A DNA stretch of 64,000 nucleotides from a virus. Below are positions 9,007 to 36,727 of this stretch, in pieces; the first letter of the stretch is position 1; every line of letters begins with the position of its first letter. The notes under the pieces are model-generated. The model had not been told where the DNA came from and made no database searches. It worked only from the letters and a program-made list of their open reading frames with translations. The position numbers and the translations under genes were made by a program. The stretch lies in the IMG/VR virus record IMGVR_UViG_3300010938_000004, positions 1 to 64,000 of that record; one strand, 5' to 3'.

Positions 9007-9034
9007 TAGCTCAGTATGAGTAGCTCAGTATGAG
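9007..9034 (+). repeat. 14-bp tandem duplication
   Basis: TAGCTCAGTATGAG occurs twice in direct succession between the divergent promoters at 8966 and 9052. It is too short to classify. It may be a duplicated regulator site or replication slippage. Confidence 0.7.
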
Positions 9035-9051
9035 TCCATCGCACTTTGGTG

Positions 9052-9066
9052 TACCCTGCTTAGATG
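9052..9066 (+). promoter_or_regulatory. Leaderless promoter, TACCCT six bases before ATG
   Basis: TACCCT (9052-9057), GCTTAG, ATG 9064. There is no Shine-Dalgarno sequence. It sits divergently to the promoter at 8957-8994. Confidence 0.5.
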
Positions 9067-9443
9067 CAAATGTCTCCGTTGCTCAGCAAGATGATGGCCG
9101 CACACGGAACTATGCCTACCTACAGCTCGGAGGCGCAACAACAGGCCGCCCTGGCCGACGTCTACGAAAGAGAGCTTCCTGGATGGTCCTGCGAGAGCAC
9201 AGACTCACAGACAAAGACAGGCCCGACTTCTTCGCACCGTCCGAGGGGATTGCTGTAGAACTTAAGACCCAGGGCAGTAGGGCCAGTGTCTTGCGTCAGC
9301 TTAATCGTTACGCGACTCACCCCGACGTCAAGGTGCTGTGTCTTGTGACCTCTAAGGCGAATCTGACTAAGATGCCAGCCTCTCTTAAGGGGAAGCCGCT
9401 CTATGTGACTTTTACTGGTTGGAGAGCGCTATGTACAGGATAG
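9064..9443 (+). pseudogene. PD-(D/E)xK-type nuclease gene, frameshifted
   Basis: The N-terminal part is in frame from ATG 9064 (PTYSSEAQQQAALADVYERE). Around 9175-9200 the coding pattern moves to another frame, which continues REHRLTDKDRPDFFAPSEG, then IAVELKTQGSRASVLRQL and LCLVTS. R-P-D-F-F plus the later E-L-K-T-Q-G are the two catalytic half-motifs of VRR/PD-(D/E)xK nucleases. In such proteins a short helical N-terminus (QAALADVYERE) precedes the core, so one indel has split this gene. A functional copy would cut DNA, possibly host DNA or branched structures. Confidence 0.6.
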
Positions 9444-9513
9444 GGGCTAAGGCATTGCAGCTCAGAAAGTATCTCCCTTTATGATGTCGCTGTCATCTAC
9501 GAAACTTGTCTGC

Positions 9514-9519
9514 TATCAT
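9514..9519 (+). promoter_or_regulatory. Candidate promoter of the structured RNA
   Basis: TATCAT (9514-9519), with a weak -35 TGTCAT (9491-9496) 17 bases upstream. The predicted start near 9526-9528 coincides with the first base of the closing helix of the RNA element. Confidence 0.4.
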
Positions 9520-9527
9520 CTTATGTC

Positions 9528-9693
9528 GAGCCGGGACAGAAGCAATTGGTCTGGTGACCTCAGGGATACCCTGGACTCTCGTTCGATTCGAGAGCCGCAT
9601 AGCTGCGGGCGGTGGAGCTTTACTCCCACCTGCAGCCTTGCTGGCTGGCGCGCTGGAAGGTTCAATTCCTTCTTGTTTTGTCTCGGCTTTTTT
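9528..9693 (+). ncRNA. Compact multi-hairpin structured RNA ending in a U-run
   Basis: A 12-bp helix (two of the pairs G-U) joins 9530-9541 to 9676-9687 and is followed by six T, as in an intrinsic terminator. Inside it seven hairpins stand in a row: 9548-9559 (GGTC/GACC), 9561-9573 (CAGGG/CCCTG), 9576-9594 (CTCTCG/CGAGAG), 9595-9608 (CCGCA/TGCGG), 9611-9630 (GGTGG/CCACC, extendable), 9633-9647 (CAGCC/GGCTG) and 9656-9672 (GAAGG/CCTTC). The third and last have seven-base loops TTCGATT and TTCAATT, the tRNA T-loop pattern. No cloverleaf with a matching acceptor can be drawn, so it is not an ordinary tRNA. The ribosome binding site of the helicase gene follows at once, so this is either a free ncRNA or an attenuator-type leader. 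Confidence 0.6.
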
Positions 9694-9702
9694 GGAGTTT
9701 CG

Positions 9703-11391
9703 ATGCGGACTTTTGGCACCTTGGCAGTCTCTAAGCGTGACGGCGAGGACATCTTCTTAGCGCGTGACGTAGAGCCGCACGTCGCCATCCGCATGAAGCA
9801 GTTGTTCCCGTTCATCCCCAAGTGGACCGCATCAAGCGAAGGCTACAAGCTTCCTCTCACGCCGGCCATCGCACGCGATCTTGCCTGGTTCATGAGCCGC
9901 TATCCCCTTGAGATGTCCGCGGCGACCAAGCAGAAGGTGAACAACTTGGCTGGTGAATTTGACCAGGCCCAGCTTGAGTTGGAGCGCATCCTGACCGAGG
10001 CCTACGTGCCGCGCCCGGTTGCCATGAAGGGGGAGTTGCGGCACTATCAGGCACAAGCGGTAGATCTCCTGCTCAAGACCAAGCGCCTCCTTGTGGCTGA
10101 CCAGGTGGGCATGGGTAAGACCCTGGTGGGTATAGGCCTTGCGGTGACGCCTGGCACGCTCCCCATGCTGGTGGTGGTCCCGGCCCACTTAACGCTCCAG
10201 TGGCAGGAGCAGCTAGCACAGTTCACGGACCTTCAGGTCCACATTATCAAGAAGGGCATTCAGTACCAGCTGCCCAAGGCCGATGTGTACGTAACCACCT
10301 ATTCGAAGCTCGCCGGGTGGACGGAGCTATTTTCGTCTGGCTTCTTCAAAAGCGCCGTGTGGGATGAGTGTCAAGATCTTCGCCACGACAATACTGAGAA
10401 ATACAAGGCGGCCAACATTCTGCAGGAAAATGCCGAGTACGTTCTGGGCCTGTCGGGGACCCCGGTCTACAACTACGGCAACGAGATCTTCAACATCTTG
10501 AACCTAATCAAGCCGGGGTGTTTGGGTGAGTGGTCCGATTTTTCGCGCGAGTGGCTTGCTTGGGAGAAGAAGGTCAAGAACCCTGAAGCTTTAGGCTCCT
10601 ACCTTAGGGAGCAGCACCTGATGCTGCGAAGGACTCGCAATCGTGCGGCCCCTAATCGGATAGTCCACCGCGTGCCGCACGATCAGAAAGTGCTGGAAGA
10701 TGTCGACGGCGTAGCCAGGCAGCTCGCCACTACCGTAATGTCCGGCTCCTTTGTAGAGAGAGGGCAGGCCGCGCGCGAGCTGGATGTGATGTTGCGTCAG
10801 GCAACTGGGCAGGCCAAGGCCAAGTACGTCGCCGAGTACGTCAAGGTGTTGCTTGAGTCTGGCGAGAAGGTACTCCTGGCGGGATGGCACAGATCGGTGT
10901 ACGAAACGTGGCTAGAGGAGTTGAAGGATTTTAGTCCAGTGATGTACACCGGTAGTGAATCGCCGGCCCAGAAGAAGAAGAGCAAGGAAGACTTCGTTTC
11001 CGGCAAGAGCCAGCTCATGATCATTTCATTACGCTCTGGCGTAGGCCTAGACGGCCTACAGAAGGCGGCCTCTCTCGTGGTGGTGGGGGAGCTAGACTGG
11101 AGTCCGGCTGTACACGATCAGATTTTGGGACGCCTCGATCGCGATGGCCAAAAGGATGAGGTGACTGGGATTTTCTTGGTGGCAGATACTGGCACGGACC
11201 CACTCATGGTGGAGGTTAACGGCCTTAAGTCAGCTCAGTCCCGCGGCATTCTAGACCCAGGCAAGCCTGTAGACCACACAGCGCCTGATGAAAGTCGTAT
11301 CAGGATGCTAGCCGAGGTGGTGTTGAAGAGAAGAGGCGTATTGACGCACCTCGTTGAAGCAGGTACGATCCCCTCAAGGAGAAACCAATGA
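9703..11391 (+). CDS. SNF2/superfamily-2 DNA helicase or translocase
   Basis: GGAG five bases before ATG 9703 sets the start and gives 562 residues. The first 110 residues (FIPKWTASSEGYKLPL...) resemble the small N-terminal domain of phage SNF2-like helicases. Then come motif I DQVGMGKT (about 131-138), motif II WDECQD, motif III GLSGTP, and the C-terminal helicase lobe with GVGLDGLQKAASLVVVGEL and the motif VI region QILGRLDRDGQ. This is the SWI2/SNF2 order. The protein should use ATP to move on double-stranded DNA, for example in recombination or replication restart. It overlaps the next gene by ATGA. The structured RNA just upstream may regulate it. Confidence 0.85.
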   Translation: MRTFGTLAVSKRDGEDIFLARDVEPHVAIRMKQLFPFIPKWTASSEGYKLPLTPAIARDLAWFMSRYPLEMSAATKQKVNNLAGEFDQAQLELERILTEAYVPRPVAMKGELRHYQAQAVDLLLKTKRLLVADQVGMGKTLVGIGLAVTPGTLPMLVVVPAHLTLQWQEQLAQFTDLQVHIIKKGIQYQLPKADVYVTTYSKLAGWTELFSSGFFKSAVWDECQDLRHDNTEKYKAANILQENAEYVLGLSGTPVYNYGNEIFNILNLIKPGCLGEWSDFSREWLAWEKKVKNPEALGSYLREQHLMLRRTRNRAAPNRIVHRVPHDQKVLEDVDGVARQLATTVMSGSFVERGQAARELDVMLRQATGQAKAKYVAEYVKVLLESGEKVLLAGWHRSVYETWLEELKDFSPVMYTGSESPAQKKKSKEDFVSGKSQLMIISLRSGVGLDGLQKAASLVVVGELDWSPAVHDQILGRLDRDGQKDEVTGIFLVADTGTDPLMVEVNGLKSAQSRGILDPGKPVDHTAPDESRIRMLAEVVLKRRGVLTHLVEAGTIPSRRNQ

Positions 11392-31999: not shown

Positions 32000-32796
32000 T
32001 AGTCCTCCGCCAGAAAGGCCACTTGGTTTTTGAGTGTGTCCCCCAGCCTGCCCTTAAGGATGCTAGGACCACGACTCCGCGGTTGAATGGTGAGCTTTCT
32101 GCAAACTCTTCGAACTACCTTATGGCGCTCTGCCAGCGCATAGGTGTCCGGACTCAATCTGCTCCAGTCCTCTACCGTTAGAAGCTTTTTAGCAATGGGG
32201 CTCAGCTTCTGAGAGATCTCATCCGCTAACTGCATGCGCCGCGCAAACGCACACTGTCGCTTAGTATCACGAGTGACTTCTTTCAGGGCCTCATGATGGA
32301 CGCTCATGTTCGAGCAAGGCGGGATCTTTCTGGCTTTATAGCCGCGAGTCCGCCCCTGATTGTCCATCTTATTTCCGCACCATTTAAGGCGCGAGTAAAC
32401 CCTAGCCTTGATGGTTGAATCTGCCCGAATGACTCGATACAGGCCCGGGTACCGCTTCATGCAGTCGCCAGGGGAAACGATCCCTAGTTTTTGAATTTCG
32501 GCCACAAGTTCATCCGTAGTCAGTTTGCTCCATCTTCCGTATGGCGTCCCATGCCTCGTCAGCGAAACTTTAGCCTGCACCCCAAGAGAGCGCAGGCTCT
32601 TCGAAATCACATCCTCAGCCTGCTTAAGGAGATCCAAGTACCAAAGGCGCCCATAGAACCTGGGATAAAATTTACGCACTGCAGACAGGGAGCCGACTCG
32701 CTCCGGCTGTTCTAGGGCGGCCTTTTGCAGCAACGCGAGCGCAGCATGAGGTGGGTCGCCTGGTCGAAAATTGCTGAATAGTGCGTTGGCTTTCAT
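31999..32796 (-). CDS. Hypothetical basic protein, possibly DNA-binding
   Basis: The 265-residue protein is strongly basic and helical. Segments such as TTDELVAEIQKLGIVSPGDC, then MKRYPGLYRVIRADSTIKAR repeat a helix-turn-helix rhythm (an L-x-x-x-G-x-x-S/T-x-x-D/E pattern), like small DNA-binding repeats. No enzyme motif is found. It sits between the vWA protein and DNA ligase and overlaps both neighbours, so it shares their transcript. Confidence 0.55.
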   Translation of the reverse strand: MKANALFSNFRPGDPPHAALALLQKAALEQPERVGSLSAVRKFYPRFYGRLWYLDLLKQAEDVISKSLRSLGVQAKVSLTRHGTPYGRWSKLTTDELVAEIQKLGIVSPGDCMKRYPGLYRVIRADSTIKARVYSRLKWCGNKMDNQGRTRGYKARKIPPCSNMSVHHEALKEVTRDTKRQCAFARRMQLADEISQKLSPIAKKLLTVEDWSRLSPDTYALAERHKVVRRVCRKLTIQPRSRGPSILKGRLGDTLKNQVAFLAED

Positions 32797-34199
32797 CTCG
32801 CAGCCTTGTGTATGGGTTTAGCCTTGGCGATCGTCCGATACACCTGGCGCATGACCGTGAGTTTGTCCCCATGGAGGTCCACCGGCGCCACCACGTCACA
32901 CCACTCTGTGAGCGACGAAGTCCTTGACTGATCCACCTGCAGGCCAAAGGTGCGCATCCCGCGCGAGCGAAACGCGTCTAGCTTTTGCATAGTGTAAGGG
33001 CTGACTCGATCTTCGCCATCAGTAAGCACCACGAGATCTGCTACCTTGTGATGGACCTTGGCGTTCTTCACCATGCGGCTCAGGCAATGCTCGATAGCCC
33101 GATCGAAGCTTGTTCCTCCGCTTGCGTGAAGCGACAGCACATCACTGGGCTTGATGGTCCAGGCGGCGTCGTTGAACGCCACCACCTCAAAAGGGCGACG
33201 CTGCTGAGCGCAGGCAACCGCCAGGCCCGCGGCCATCGACTTAGCCCACAGCAGGCGCTGCTGGTCCATAGAGCTTGAGCAATCAAGCGCCATCACAACA
33301 GGCCCCATGGCCGACTCGGAGGCCTCGACGGTCTGAATCGGCAGGCGGCCCTCGGCCATCTCCAGAAGGAAGAGATCTTCGTTCATTTCAAGCTTGAACA
33401 GCGCGCTGGGTAGGATCTTCGATAGGTCTGAGCCGAAGGAGATGTCTACCATCTCGCCCGAGCTGTAGGAGTTGGTGAATAAGCACTCAAGCTTAGATGC
33501 AGCTCGTGCACGGCCCATCAGATCAAACAGCTCCAGCAGATTGCGATCCAAGCAAACGGACGGCTCTTTGGCCGCAAACTGAGGAACAGTGTAGTGCTTG
33601 CCAGCCTGCCGGCCGCCAGGAATAGATTTTCCTTGTTCATTGGGGCTCTGGTCCAGCTGCTCAAGCTCGCGCGCGGCAGACATACCAGCCTGCAGGCCCG
33701 CTGCTTGCTCCAGGGCACCTCGCACTGCCTGATTCAGGCCCTCGGAACGCGACCGCTGCTCCTGTTCATCCTTGGGCGGCTTCTGCGTCAGGATCTTAAC
33801 GATCTGCTTCGCAAGCGACAGGACTGACATCGCAGCCACCATCGGGTCCATCAGCGCGCACTCCATCAGGTGCGCCCAGCTATCGGTCTTCGCCAGCTCC
33901 TCAGTAACCTTCTGAGTGGCCTGAGCATGCTCGTCCGCGAACTCGAAGTCTGTTACGCGAGAAGGATTCGACAGCACCTCCTCGGTTTTCCCCACGCTCA
34001 GGACGGCCGCAATGCCCTGACCCACCCGAGTAAGGGTCGTCACCGCTTCCTTGGTGGTCTGTTGCTGGTCGCCCTTCAAGTTGGCGCCAACAAAGACCCG
34101 CTCAGGGCCGCGGCGCTCGATCTGGCGACTCAACACCAGGGCCGTAGACCGTCCAACCAGCACTTCGAGAGGAGATAGGTTTTGACTTTTGTCTTCCAT
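32793..34199 (-). CDS. von Willebrand A (MIDAS) protein, ViaA/CoxE-like
   Basis: The 468-residue protein has VVMALDCSSSMDQQ at about residue 300, the DxSxS metal-ion site of vWA domains. GGTSFDRAIEHCL (the T of MIDAS) and VVLTDGED (the D) follow. The first 280 residues are helical and acidic. This is the layout of ViaA/CoxE-like partners of MoxR AAA+ ATPases, and a MoxR ATPase lies two genes upstream. Together they may act as a chaperone that remodels a metalloprotein or a large complex. The promoter TTGACA-N17-TAGAGT lies seven bases before the ATG. Confidence 0.8.
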   Translation of the reverse strand: MEDKSQNLSPLEVLVGRSTALVLSRQIERRGPERVFVGANLKGDQQQTTKEAVTTLTRVGQGIAAVLSVGKTEEVLSNPSRVTDFEFADEHAQATQKVTEELAKTDSWAHLMECALMDPMVAAMSVLSLAKQIVKILTQKPPKDEQEQRSRSEGLNQAVRGALEQAAGLQAGMSAARELEQLDQSPNEQGKSIPGGRQAGKHYTVPQFAAKEPSVCLDRNLLELFDLMGRARAASKLECLFTNSYSSGEMVDISFGSDLSKILPSALFKLEMNEDLFLLEMAEGRLPIQTVEASESAMGPVVMALDCSSSMDQQRLLWAKSMAAGLAVACAQQRRPFEVVAFNDAAWTIKPSDVLSLHASGGTSFDRAIEHCLSRMVKNAKVHHKVADLVVLTDGEDRVSPYTMQKLDAFRSRGMRTFGLQVDQSRTSSLTEWCDVVAPVDLHGDKLTVMRQVYRTIAKAKPIHKAAR

Positions 34200-34235
34200 G
34201 AGCTTTACTCTATCGTTCTTGACGCGTCATGTCAA
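34200..34235 (-). promoter_or_regulatory. Promoter and operator of the vWA-ligase operon
   Basis: On the minus strand TTGACA, 17 bases, TAGAGT, seven bases, ATG 34199. The -35 is one arm of the inverted repeat TTGACATGACGCGTCAA (34235-34219), extended to TTCTTGAC/GTCAAGAA, which also occurs at 35180 and in a variant form at 29239. Confidence 0.65.
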
Positions 34236-34243
34236 GAACTGAC

Positions 34244-35143
34244 TTATTGAGCGCTGAGCATTCCTCCGGCCAGGCCCAAATCCTGCGCATTCTTGCTGAG
34301 TACGCCGACCGCTACCTCGACTTCTTTGAGCTTGAGCTTAAGATCGTCGGATTTGAACTGGAGCAACTCTGAGTACAGCAGCACGCGCTCCTTGACGTCG
34401 TTGAGGTCGTCGACCCGAGAGGTGACGTAGCGCTCACTGGCGCTCGTGCCCTTATCCTTGACGGCCTTGAGAATGTCTCCCAATTCGGCCTCCACCGAAG
34501 CCGAGAAGCTCTTCCACGCCGCGACGCGCGCCTGCTCGGTGTTGACCACCGGCACCGTACTCACCTCGCAGCCGAATTGCTTGAAAAGCTCCTGGAAAGC
34601 CCGGAACTCTACTTCGTGCGCGGACGGCACGAAGTAGACCCCGCCATTGTCTCGGATGGCGACGCCCTTCAGCCACAGGCGCAGGGCGCGCAGGACCGAC
34701 GTGCGGAGCATGTCCGAGGTGAAGCTCGACTTCAGACTCTCGAACTCTTGCACAATCTGCTCGCGATCGAGACCCTCGACCTTGGCCGTCTTCGTATCCT
34801 TGTCATACACGGCCCTAGTCTCGGTGAAAAACTTGGCTCCCAACTGGTCCTTGTTGATGCTGTCGCTCTCAGACTGGACGATGAGGTATCCCGCTGCCGA
34901 GGCGTCGTCGAGCACCTTGCGGGAAAACACACCCTCTCGGCCCTTGGCCGCCGAACGCACCGCCTTGCTCAGGGCGGACTTTGTCAAGATCTTGGCCAAG
35001 TAGTCCGTCGGGACTCCCGCCGCAGCAAACTTGGCCTCGGCTTCCTCGATGGTGACCCGGAAGCTTCGGATGGTCCAATAGACCACCCACCCCAGAAGCG
35101 GAAAGCCCTCGGCCGACTTAGCGATAGTGATTTTCGTGCTCAT
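34244..35143 (-). CDS. MoxR-associated protein (DUF6744-like)
   Basis: The 299-residue protein starts after AAGGAGGAATC at ATG 35143. It has an N-terminal helix-rich domain, a strand region (GGVYFVP, about residue 170) and a C-terminal coiled coil (SRVDDLNDVKERVLLYSELL). The order and the wording (WLKGVAIRDNGGVYFVPSAH) recall DUF6744 proteins, which I associate with MoxR neighbourhoods. It lies between the MoxR and vWA genes, so it is probably their partner. Confidence in the family name is moderate. Confidence 0.55.
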   Translation of the reverse strand: MSTKITIAKSAEGFPLLGWVVYWTIRSFRVTIEEAEAKFAAAGVPTDYLAKILTKSALSKAVRSAAKGREGVFSRKVLDDASAAGYLIVQSESDSINKDQLGAKFFTETRAVYDKDTKTAKVEGLDREQIVQEFESLKSSFTSDMLRTSVLRALRLWLKGVAIRDNGGVYFVPSAHEVEFRAFQELFKQFGCEVSTVPVVNTEQARVAAWKSFSASVEAELGDILKAVKDKGTSASERYVTSRVDDLNDVKERVLLYSELLQFKSDDLKLKLKEVEVAVGVLSKNAQDLGLAGGMLSAQ

Positions 35144-35170
35144 GATTCCTCCTTGTTCTTCCTGTTCAGG

Positions 35171-35392
35171 CTACTCTTTTTGACGCACTATGTCAAGCAG
35201 CATCTCGCGGGCTTCGTACATGACGGCCGACGCGTGCAAGTACCCGAGTTCTTCTGCTTCGTAAGCCATAATGGAGAGATCGGCGGCAATCTCCTTCGTC
35301 TTCTTGTGGAGAAAGGACCCACGCGGCACCAGTGGTTTGGTGAGAAGCGTGGGTCCCCGACGGGTCAGGAATTTGACAATGCGCTGAATCAC
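35171..35392 (-). CDS. Small hypothetical protein
   Basis: GTG 35392 overlaps the MoxR stop (GTGA), giving 73 residues. The N-terminus is basic (IQRIVKFLTRRGPTLLTKPL). The rest is two helices (KEIAADLSIMAYEAEELGYL, then ASAVMYEAREMLLDIVRQK). Coupling suggests a partner of the MoxR ATPase. The 3' end overlaps the promoter of the next gene. Confidence 0.55.
   Translation of the reverse strand: MIQRIVKFLTRRGPTLLTKPLVPRGSFLHKKTKEIAADLSIMAYEAEELGYLHASAVMYEAREMLLDIVRQKE
35174..35196 (-). promoter_or_regulatory. Promoter and operator of the DUF6744-like gene
   Basis: On the minus strand TTGACATAGTGCGTCAA (35196-35180) is an inverted repeat, TTGAC-N7-GTCAA. Its first six bases are a perfect -35, with TAGCCT 17 bases downstream. 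A leader with AAGGAGG follows. A half-site (TTGACGCAC) also precedes the MoxR gene near 36593-36585. Confidence 0.6.
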
Positions 35393-36531
35393 GGCTGAGA
35401 CACTTTCTTCTGGAGCTGCTTCTGGATGTCGTCCAGCTCTTCGACCAACTTCACGCACTGCTCGCGATTGCTCTTCAAGCCCTGCGTGGTGAAAGGTTCG
35501 ATGGTGCCTCTGGCGTTGCGAATGGCCGTGGATATCTTGAATATGTTGTCTGGGCCCAGGTCCTTCGACGGCATGCCCATGATGGCCTTGAAATCCTCTC
35601 GGATCTGGCCCATCGCCTGCTGAGCCATCAGGAGAGTCTCCTTACCGGACTGCACCACCTTGCCGATCGCCACCGCGATCGCCGGCCGCTGGTCCGGGTC
35701 CGTCCACAGAACGTCCGACAGGATGTTCAGGTGGCCAATCCCGACCTGATTGTCACCGTTCAAATACGCAACCGCCTTCAAGAGGCGGGCCGCCTGAACC
35801 CATCGGCGATCTGACACGTAGATGTCTCCACCGGAAAACTCCTGGCGCAGGCTGAACATGGCCTGGACCACGTCATCCGACAGCGGAATCGTGAGGGCCT
35901 CTTCGCGAGCCGCGGACAGGTCGCTATCGGTGATGACCGTCTCCACGGCCTTCAAGGAGGCGCCCGACAGAATCTGCTCGAAGGAAGAGGCTTTGGTGAT
36001 CGGCTCGACATGGATGCGCACCGCGAAGCGGTCATATAGCGCTGCGAGTTCCGGGCTGGTCGGGATCTCGTTCGAGGCGCCCAGCACCATGCGCAGCGGG
36101 ATGCGCTTGGGCGTGGTCCCATCGAAGAAGACCTTCTCGTTCAGAATGGGAAGCAGAGTGTTCAGGATCGCCGAACTGCCCTTGAAGATCTCGTCCAGGA
36201 AGGCTACATCGGCCTCCGGGAGCTTGTGCGCGGTAACCCGCTCATAACGCCCCTCTTTCAGGAGGGGAAACGAGAGCGGTCCGAACAGCTCTTCGGGCGA
36301 GGTGTGCTTGGTCAGGAGCCACGAGAAGTACCGGCCACTGATCGCCTGGGCGAGAGCGCCGCAGAGCGATGACTTGGCGGTGCCCGGGGGGCCCAACAGA
36401 AAGACGTTCTCGCTGGCCACCAGCGCGGCCACGATCGCCGAGATCGCCTGCTCGCGCTCGGGGAAGCGAGCATTCAGCTCCTCCGCGAGTTTTTGAAACT
36501 TGCTGGTATTATTGTTGTTCTTTTGTTCCAT
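35389..36531 (-). CDS. MoxR-family AAA+ ATPase
   Basis: GGAGAGGGAAAG before ATG 36531 sets the start and gives 380 residues. LLGPPGTAKSS (Walker A, 46-55), ADVAFLDEIFKGSSAILNTL (Walker B and the helix of MoxR proteins), GASNEIPTSPELAALYDRFA (sensor 1, arginine region) and SDRRWVQAARLLKAVA (sensor 2) appear in order. MoxR ATPases pair with vWA proteins to remodel or activate client complexes. The vWA gene and a probable third partner follow directly, so this looks like a complete phage-borne MoxR-vWA set. Confidence 0.85.
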   Translation of the reverse strand: MEQKNNNNTSKFQKLAEELNARFPEREQAISAIVAALVASENVFLLGPPGTAKSSLCGALAQAISGRYFSWLLTKHTSPEELFGPLSFPLLKEGRYERVTAHKLPEADVAFLDEIFKGSSAILNTLLPILNEKVFFDGTTPKRIPLRMVLGASNEIPTSPELAALYDRFAVRIHVEPITKASSFEQILSGASLKAVETVITDSDLSAAREEALTIPLSDDVVQAMFSLRQEFSGGDIYVSDRRWVQAARLLKAVAYLNGDNQVGIGHLNILSDVLWTDPDQRPAIAVAIGKVVQSGKETLLMAQQAMGQIREDFKAIMGMPSKDLGPDNIFKISTAIRNARGTIEPFTTQGLKSNREQCVKLVEELDDIQKQLQKKVSQP

Positions 36532-36727
36532 CTTTCCCTCTCCGTCAGTTTGTCTCAGCCATGAGAATAGCGGGCTTATATGTGGTGCGTCAAGAAGGAA
36601 ATAACGCACTGCCCCGCCGAATGCGCACCTACACTCAGAACACACGAGGCGGGATGGCTAGTTTGTACCTAAAGTGCCGACATTCTTAGTTTTAGATTCT
36701 GAGACCCAGGGTTTACGCCTTGTAGGC

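Follow-up and report, generated by a model that had tools for sequence, protein, structure and literature searches.

A candidate two-elbow tRNA-like RNA gene ahead of a phage SNF2 helicase gene, and RNAs of like build in other phages

What kind of RNA lies between the nuclease gene and the SNF2-family helicase gene of the phage record IMGVR_UViG_3300010938_000004? We analyzed positions 1–64,000 of this record (hereafter the window, 64,000 nucleotides [nt]; the whole record is 132.5 kb), where a sequence-only reading had marked 9528–9693 as a new structured RNA, possibly a stand-alone noncoding RNA or an attenuator; its sequence and coordinates are correct. The account that we favor, with somewhat better than even confidence, is an independent small-RNA gene of transfer RNA (tRNA) derivation, with two modules, or elbows, in one acceptor-like helix and most likely the function of a tRNA mimic.

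Fold and tRNA-like layout of the window RNA

The RNA at 9528–9693 (plus strand, 166 nt; hereafter the window RNA) has a minimum free energy (MFE) of −78.0 kcal/mol, against −58.4 ± 4.1 kcal/mol for dinucleotide shuffles (n = 200; z = −4.73; 0 of 200 shuffles equally low), which bears out the claim of a structured RNA by the shuffle check proposed with it. The acceptor-like closing helix runs from G9528–T9689 through A9545–T9673 with one bulged G (9542); its 5′ strand is GAGCCGGGACAGAAGCAA (9528–9545), and its 3′ strand, TTGTTTTGTCTCGGC, forms together with U6 an intrinsic-terminator-like end (9673–9693). The nine core pairs have pairing probabilities of 0.9–1.0 and U6 (9688–9693) adjoins the helix, as the sequence-only reading had proposed. 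Its count of seven hairpins stands in part. The GGTC/GACC, CAGGG/CCCTG, CTCTCG-TTCGATT-CGAGAG, and GAAGG-TTCAATT-CCTTC hairpins are firm (mostly 0.9–1.0), except that the TTCGATT arm is frayed at its outer two pairs (0.63 and 0.76), but hairpins 4–6 (CCGCA/TGCGG, GGTGGAG.., and CAGCC/GGCTG) compete with a single long hairpin, which the MFE fold contains with a probability of ~0.88. When forced, the seven-hairpin fold reaches −76.1 kcal/mol, 1.9 kcal/mol above the MFE; it is plausible and is favored by RNAs of like build in another phage contig (L244) and in Myxococcus phage Mx1, but it is not the best by energy alone.

Both 7-nt loops belong to canonical T-arms (G53–C61 closing pair, TTCRANN), so the earlier likening of TTCGATT and TTCAATT to tRNA T-loops holds. 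Under a first-order Markov control, 0.0006 of these arms would be expected in 166 nt, compared with two observed; the expectation across the 132.5 kb is one, and exactly two are present, both in the window RNA, with no other found on either strand. From 5′ to 3′, the acceptor-like strand and TT are followed by a D-like arm, GGTC TGGT GACC (9548–9559), an anticodon-arm-like hairpin, TCAGGG ATA CCCTGG (9560–9574), which has no anticodon because its loop is the triloop ATA, and T-arm 1, CTCTCG TTCGATT CGAGAG (9576–9594). The middle hairpin, CCGCA TAGC TGCGG (9595–9608), can be read as the remnants of inner acceptor strands, although an alternative pairing exists, and its position matches that of CCCCTC/GAGGGG in L244. 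Then come a hairpin in the second D position, GGTGGAG CTTTA CTCCCACC (9611–9630), which lacks a TGGT loop, a hairpin with a TNGCT pentaloop, CAGCC TTGCT GGCTG (9633–9647), and T-arm 2, GAAGG TTCAATT CCTTC (9656–9672), which adjoins the 3′ closing strand.

We infer from this order two D/anticodon/T modules inside one acceptor-like helix, a reading that goes beyond the sequence-only one. Such a layout would be expected if the 5′ acceptor strand of a first tRNA paired with the 3′ acceptor strand of a second, and the inner acceptor strands paired together. The window RNA is not recognized as a tRNA: ARAGORN calls no gene, Rfam returns no tRNA match up to E 10, and the anticodon-like loops measure 3 and 5 nt. 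Nor is it recognized as a transfer-messenger RNA (tmRNA), with no RF00023 match, no ARAGORN tmRNA, and no tag reading frame. Searches with Rfam and ARAGORN detected neither an Rfam family nor a tRNA anywhere in the 132.5-kb record, nor any tmRNA in the window. A match to HCV_X3 (E 0.74) was dismissed as chance.

RNAs of like build in phage tRNA arrays

A covariance model built from the window RNA alone flagged a region in the tRNA array of phage Mx1 (E 0.2, by itself not significant). This region contains an unannotated RNA with a 7-bp acceptor, a D-like hairpin (CTCG-TGGT-CGAG), a T-arm, a hairpin, a second D-like hairpin, CAGAGG-TCGCT-CCTCTG, and a last T-arm. We scanned IMG/VR and GTDB genomes with a pattern taken from the window and Mx1 RNAs (D-like TGGT, T-arm, T-arm). 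After removal of tRNAs, at least several phage contigs carried two or three T-arms in one closing helix, some of 20–22 bp; the RNAs of like build among the IMG/VR matches listed are L168, L133, L199, L145, L169, L194, L238, L244, L210, L158, and L180. Closing-helix scores of at least 20 were reached in seven cases (one of them a tandem tRNA duplicate), compared with a mean of 0.2 when the 3′ strand was shuffled. The multi-T-arm RNAs lie mostly in tRNA arrays, and none of the 12 loci tested had an Rfam match over the RNA. Current annotation leaves them blank or appears to label a part as tRNA, and no published description was found in the part of the literature covered.

The firmest result is the covariation of a family in Streptomyces phages, which rests on natural compensation. 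The member in phage Wofford lies between tRNA-Gly and tRNA-Arg and, like its homologs in Blueeyedbeauty, NootNoot, Paradiddles, and Navo, is unannotated; NootNoot and its kin have one additional 33-nt module bearing a T-arm. In the alignment (three distinct rows), 10 of the 20 pairs show changes on both sides, and 98% of cells are paired, compared with 40–53% in slid controls (0 of 500 shuffles equally good). Fully compensated closing helices also occur in Faust, Sham, TunaTartare, Moab, Patelgo, Stigma, Comrade, and Belfort, with GCACAAAGAG/CTCTTTGTGC and TGTACAGAGG/CCTCTGTACA as fresh examples of compensation in further phages. The family is extended by aligned RNAs of the unrelated IMG/VR contigs L210 and L227 and by matches of the Streptomyces-type model in L177 and L158 (>60 bits), whereas its matches at 17–30 bits are largely neighboring tRNAs. 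The fold energy of members is not always remarkable (z from −1.2 to −3.5).

Throughout the 13 Streptomyces phages named above (L325–L337), this conserved, covarying RNA has two or three T-arms and is located within a tRNA/tmRNA array. Most of the phages leave it unannotated; in Comrade and Belfort its first part is covered by a tRNA-Ser annotation, probably a misannotation.

On build rather than on homology, the window RNA is a probable member of this class. It has two canonical T-arms within one acceptor-like closing helix, the last T-arm adjoining the 3′ strand, and a TGG D-loop-like motif soon after the 5′ closing strand. The TNGCT pentaloop ahead of the last T-arm is common to the window RNA, Mx1, L177, the NootNoot type, and Wofford. 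L244 matches the window-only model over its full length (23.2 bits, E 1.4e-4 in 151 kb), an E-value that is optimistic because L244 was preselected. Several points weigh against our reading: the pattern by which L244 was chosen derived partly from the window RNA itself; the Streptomyces-type model scores the window RNA at 18.6 bits (E 0.024), a level that tandem tRNAs of the ordinary kind also reach; the collections searched yielded no close homolog from which covariation of its own pairs could be read; it lies outside any tRNA array, unlike the other members; and the seven-hairpin fold differs from the MFE fold.

Various candidates were set aside in these searches. L283, L265, and L163 from the descriptor list are tandem duplicates, and the pattern matches in GTDB bacterial genomes are mostly tandem tRNAs. 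An exact T-arm scan returned mainly ordinary tRNAs and coding sequence, and an exact scan for T-arm 1 of the window RNA gave no match. Two full-length matches to the window-only model in LR745208 (E 0.09 and 0.4) were rejected because a T-arm is missing from one and the other coincides in part with a tRNA. When the window RNA was aligned to the class with MAFFT, the result was out of register by one module and was discarded.

Phage tRNA arrays also hold single-module tRNA-like RNAs (L093 3062–3151 and L094 7875–7968; also in L089, L092, L098, and L110). Their D-arm is tiny, and a triloop caps the anticodon arm (stems of 8 and 15 bp), which leaves no anticodon. In two tRNA-Gln-like genes (L103 12218–12332 and L106 3852–3966), pairing between leader and trailer extends the acceptor by ~13 bp, a resemblance to the multi-T-arm RNAs with their long closing helices. 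A further tRNA-like gene (L105 2869–3035) has an insertion of ~75 nt around the anticodon that folds into long hairpins.

Genomic context and competing explanations

The window RNA is flanked on the plus strand by a gene in the nuclease position (phrog_5928, 9030–9443) and by the SNF2-family helicase gene (9703–11391, 562 amino acids; Pfam PF00176, E 1e-21, and tblastn). GGAG at 9694–9697 directly follows U6 and precedes the SNF2 ATG at 9703, so the position given earlier, directly before the SNF2 ribosome-binding site, is accurate. Nuclease and SNF2 form a conserved gene pair that normally overlaps (median gap −4 nt across 52 SNF2 relatives), whereas here the gap is 259 nt with the RNA inside it. 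No similar RNA was found in the SNF2 relatives, upstream of the gene or elsewhere in their records. Because the pair overlaps in most relatives and no SNF2 relative carries the RNA, we take it as an insertion, not a conserved leader, and these comparisons of sequence support a stand-alone gene rather than a conserved attenuator; of the two roles first suggested, the former is thus upheld and the latter disfavored. A candidate promoter had also been claimed. A sigma-70-like site, CTGTCA-18-TATCAT with TG before the −10 element (9490–9519, plus strand; 9 of 12 in a consensus scan), does end 8 nt ahead of the first paired base, but this is weak evidence, as such matches only modestly exceed chance (17 found vs. 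11.7 expected in 20 kb).

Four other explanations have to be weighed. If a deletion had fused two neighboring tRNA genes, the window RNA could be their decaying product, whose long helix persists because it serves as a terminator. The two D/anticodon/T sets, a T-loop spacing of 79 nt that suits tandem tRNAs, the ruin of both anticodon-like loops, and the absence of other tRNAs from the phage all agree with such a relic; random fusion would not, however, be expected to yield a 17-bp closing helix, closed two- and three-T-arm RNAs occur in separate phages, and the Streptomyces closing helix is kept by compensatory change. We consider a relic unlikely, and a cis-acting SNF2 leader, in which the helix and U6 terminate transcription and an alternative fold permits read-through, quite unlikely. 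The latter draws on the placement of U6 directly ahead of the ribosome-binding site and on the two near-isoenergetic folds of the middle part (−78.0 and −76.1 kcal/mol), but the alternative folds leave the terminator helix untouched (probability ~1), the RNA was found in none of the SNF2 relatives, in which the gene pair normally overlaps, and its counterparts in build occur in tRNA arrays instead of ahead of SNF2.

It is highly unlikely that the RNA is an adaptor resembling tRNA or tmRNA, aberrant yet functional, with a shortened anticodon arm (UNGCU, alanine-type NGC) that is charged and used by the ribosome. TNGC[TA] loops do occur in the window RNA, Mx1, L177, the NootNoot type, Wofford, and L205, and the Mx1 acceptor has 7 bp with G3–U70 and A73; these loops nevertheless have 5 nt rather than 7, the motif is missing from about half of the members, G3–U70 is not general, and neither a tag reading frame nor an Rfam tRNA or tmRNA match is present. 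We would give hardly any credence to an ordinary intrinsic terminator with a hairpin-rich spacer whose T-loops arose by chance, since the chance of two canonical T-arms within 166 nt is ~2e-7. Terminator-like sites are indeed commoner than expected (32 found vs. 18 expected), and some windows of the genome fold more strongly than the window RNA, but those are repeat arrays or simple terminators.

As a small-RNA gene inserted between the nuclease and SNF2 genes, the window RNA would be transcribed as a unit from the candidate promoter, and the outer part of the closing helix would double as its own transcription terminator. The product, possibly descended from two fused tRNAs, would be tRNA-derived, its two D/anticodon/T modules giving two tRNA-like elbows, formed by contacts between D-loop and T-loop, on one acceptor-like helix. 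Such a molecule might act as a stable tRNA mimic or decoy, without a usable anticodon, that occupies or recruits proteins recognizing the acceptor/T-arm and elbow; candidate targets are EF-Tu, RNase P, and enzymes that modify or cleave tRNA, and several elbows per molecule would multiply the effect. More tentatively, and with rather less than even confidence, phages may widely encode an undescribed class of modular tRNA-like RNAs in which each acceptor stem holds two or three complete elbows. Evolution would add or remove whole modules, and the RNAs would serve as multivalent tRNA mimics in infection; the window RNA would be a stand-alone form that brings its own promoter and terminator. These RNAs may be an overlooked class of phage tRNA mimics. 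The class, if real, may help to explain how phages occupy enzymes that handle tRNA or defenses that target it.

Known RNAs of similar build and other features of the genome

The nearest known relative in build is T4 RNA C (rnaC, species 1 stable RNA, 139 nt), a stable RNA that the phage encodes and whose function is unknown (PMC9697503, PMC3014915). Like the window RNA, it has long internal hairpins and then a canonical T-arm (CCGGG TTCGAAT CCCGG) beside a 3′ strand that pairs with the 5′ end; unlike it, RNA C has a single T-arm and a weak closing helix and is located in the T4 tRNA cluster, so that the window RNA adds a second T-arm. Searches of T4 with the window model and the Streptomyces-type model gave no match. 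Should multi-elbow RNAs recur and covary as a class across phage tRNA arrays, the long-standing question of what RNA C does could be tested in easily grown Streptomyces phages.

The Streptomyces RNAs (Wofford, Blueeyedbeauty, NootNoot, Faust, Moab, and Comrade) share with the window RNA the acceptor-like closing helix around two or three T-arms and, in most but not in Blueeyedbeauty, the TNGCT-loop hairpin ahead of the last T-arm. They differ in lying in tRNA/tmRNA arrays, in having a closing helix of 7–12 bp and no U-run terminator, and in mostly lacking anticodon-like hairpins, and their sequence is not specifically similar to that of the window RNA. The L244 and Mx1 RNAs follow the same succession as the window RNA (acceptor, D-like TGGT hairpin, T-arm, middle hairpin, D-like hairpin, T-arm, acceptor). 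L244 has GTCTGGTGAC of the first D-like arm in identical form, and Mx1 has the TGGT tetraloop, but both RNAs are shorter (96 and 113 nt), lack the hairpin between D1 and T1, and lie in tRNA arrays.

The Mx1 RNA (L123 1446–1557) has a 7-bp acceptor with G3–U70 and A73 and a CGC-type loop ahead of its last T-arm. G3–U70 and A73 are alanine identity elements, which tmRNA uses too. A 3′ T-arm beside an acceptor-like helix that brackets a long insert is common to tmRNA and the window RNA, but the latter matches no RF00023, has no tag reading frame, is less than half as long, and carries a second T-arm. Bacterial Y RNA (YrlA) is a closed-stem noncoding RNA that uses a tRNA-like module as a mimic. 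The window RNA would likewise have a tRNA-like module in a closed stem, but identity with YrlA was rejected, as neither a Ro60/TROVE (PF05731) gene in the possibly incomplete 132.5-kb record nor an Rfam match to the window RNA was found.

Searches with SNF2, major capsid protein, GroEL, and DNA-transfer protein found no close relatives of the phage; its major capsid protein is ~28% identical to those of SPO1-like phages. The phage is a myovirus with an SPO1-like capsid protein and a GroEL gene, and genes for a MoxR-type ATPase and a VWA-domain protein lie at 32793–36645 of the window on the minus strand. Elsewhere in the record, ~8 tandem AAGTGATACATCGCT units form a long intergenic hairpin (G000:C1 88270–88400; L112 4270–4400). 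Within an open reading frame, a AGCGGTCTGAAA repeat array is followed by inverted GCAGACCGCAAA repeats (G000:C1 73160–73270; L111 9160–9270), and this array ranks among the strongest fold windows of the genome.
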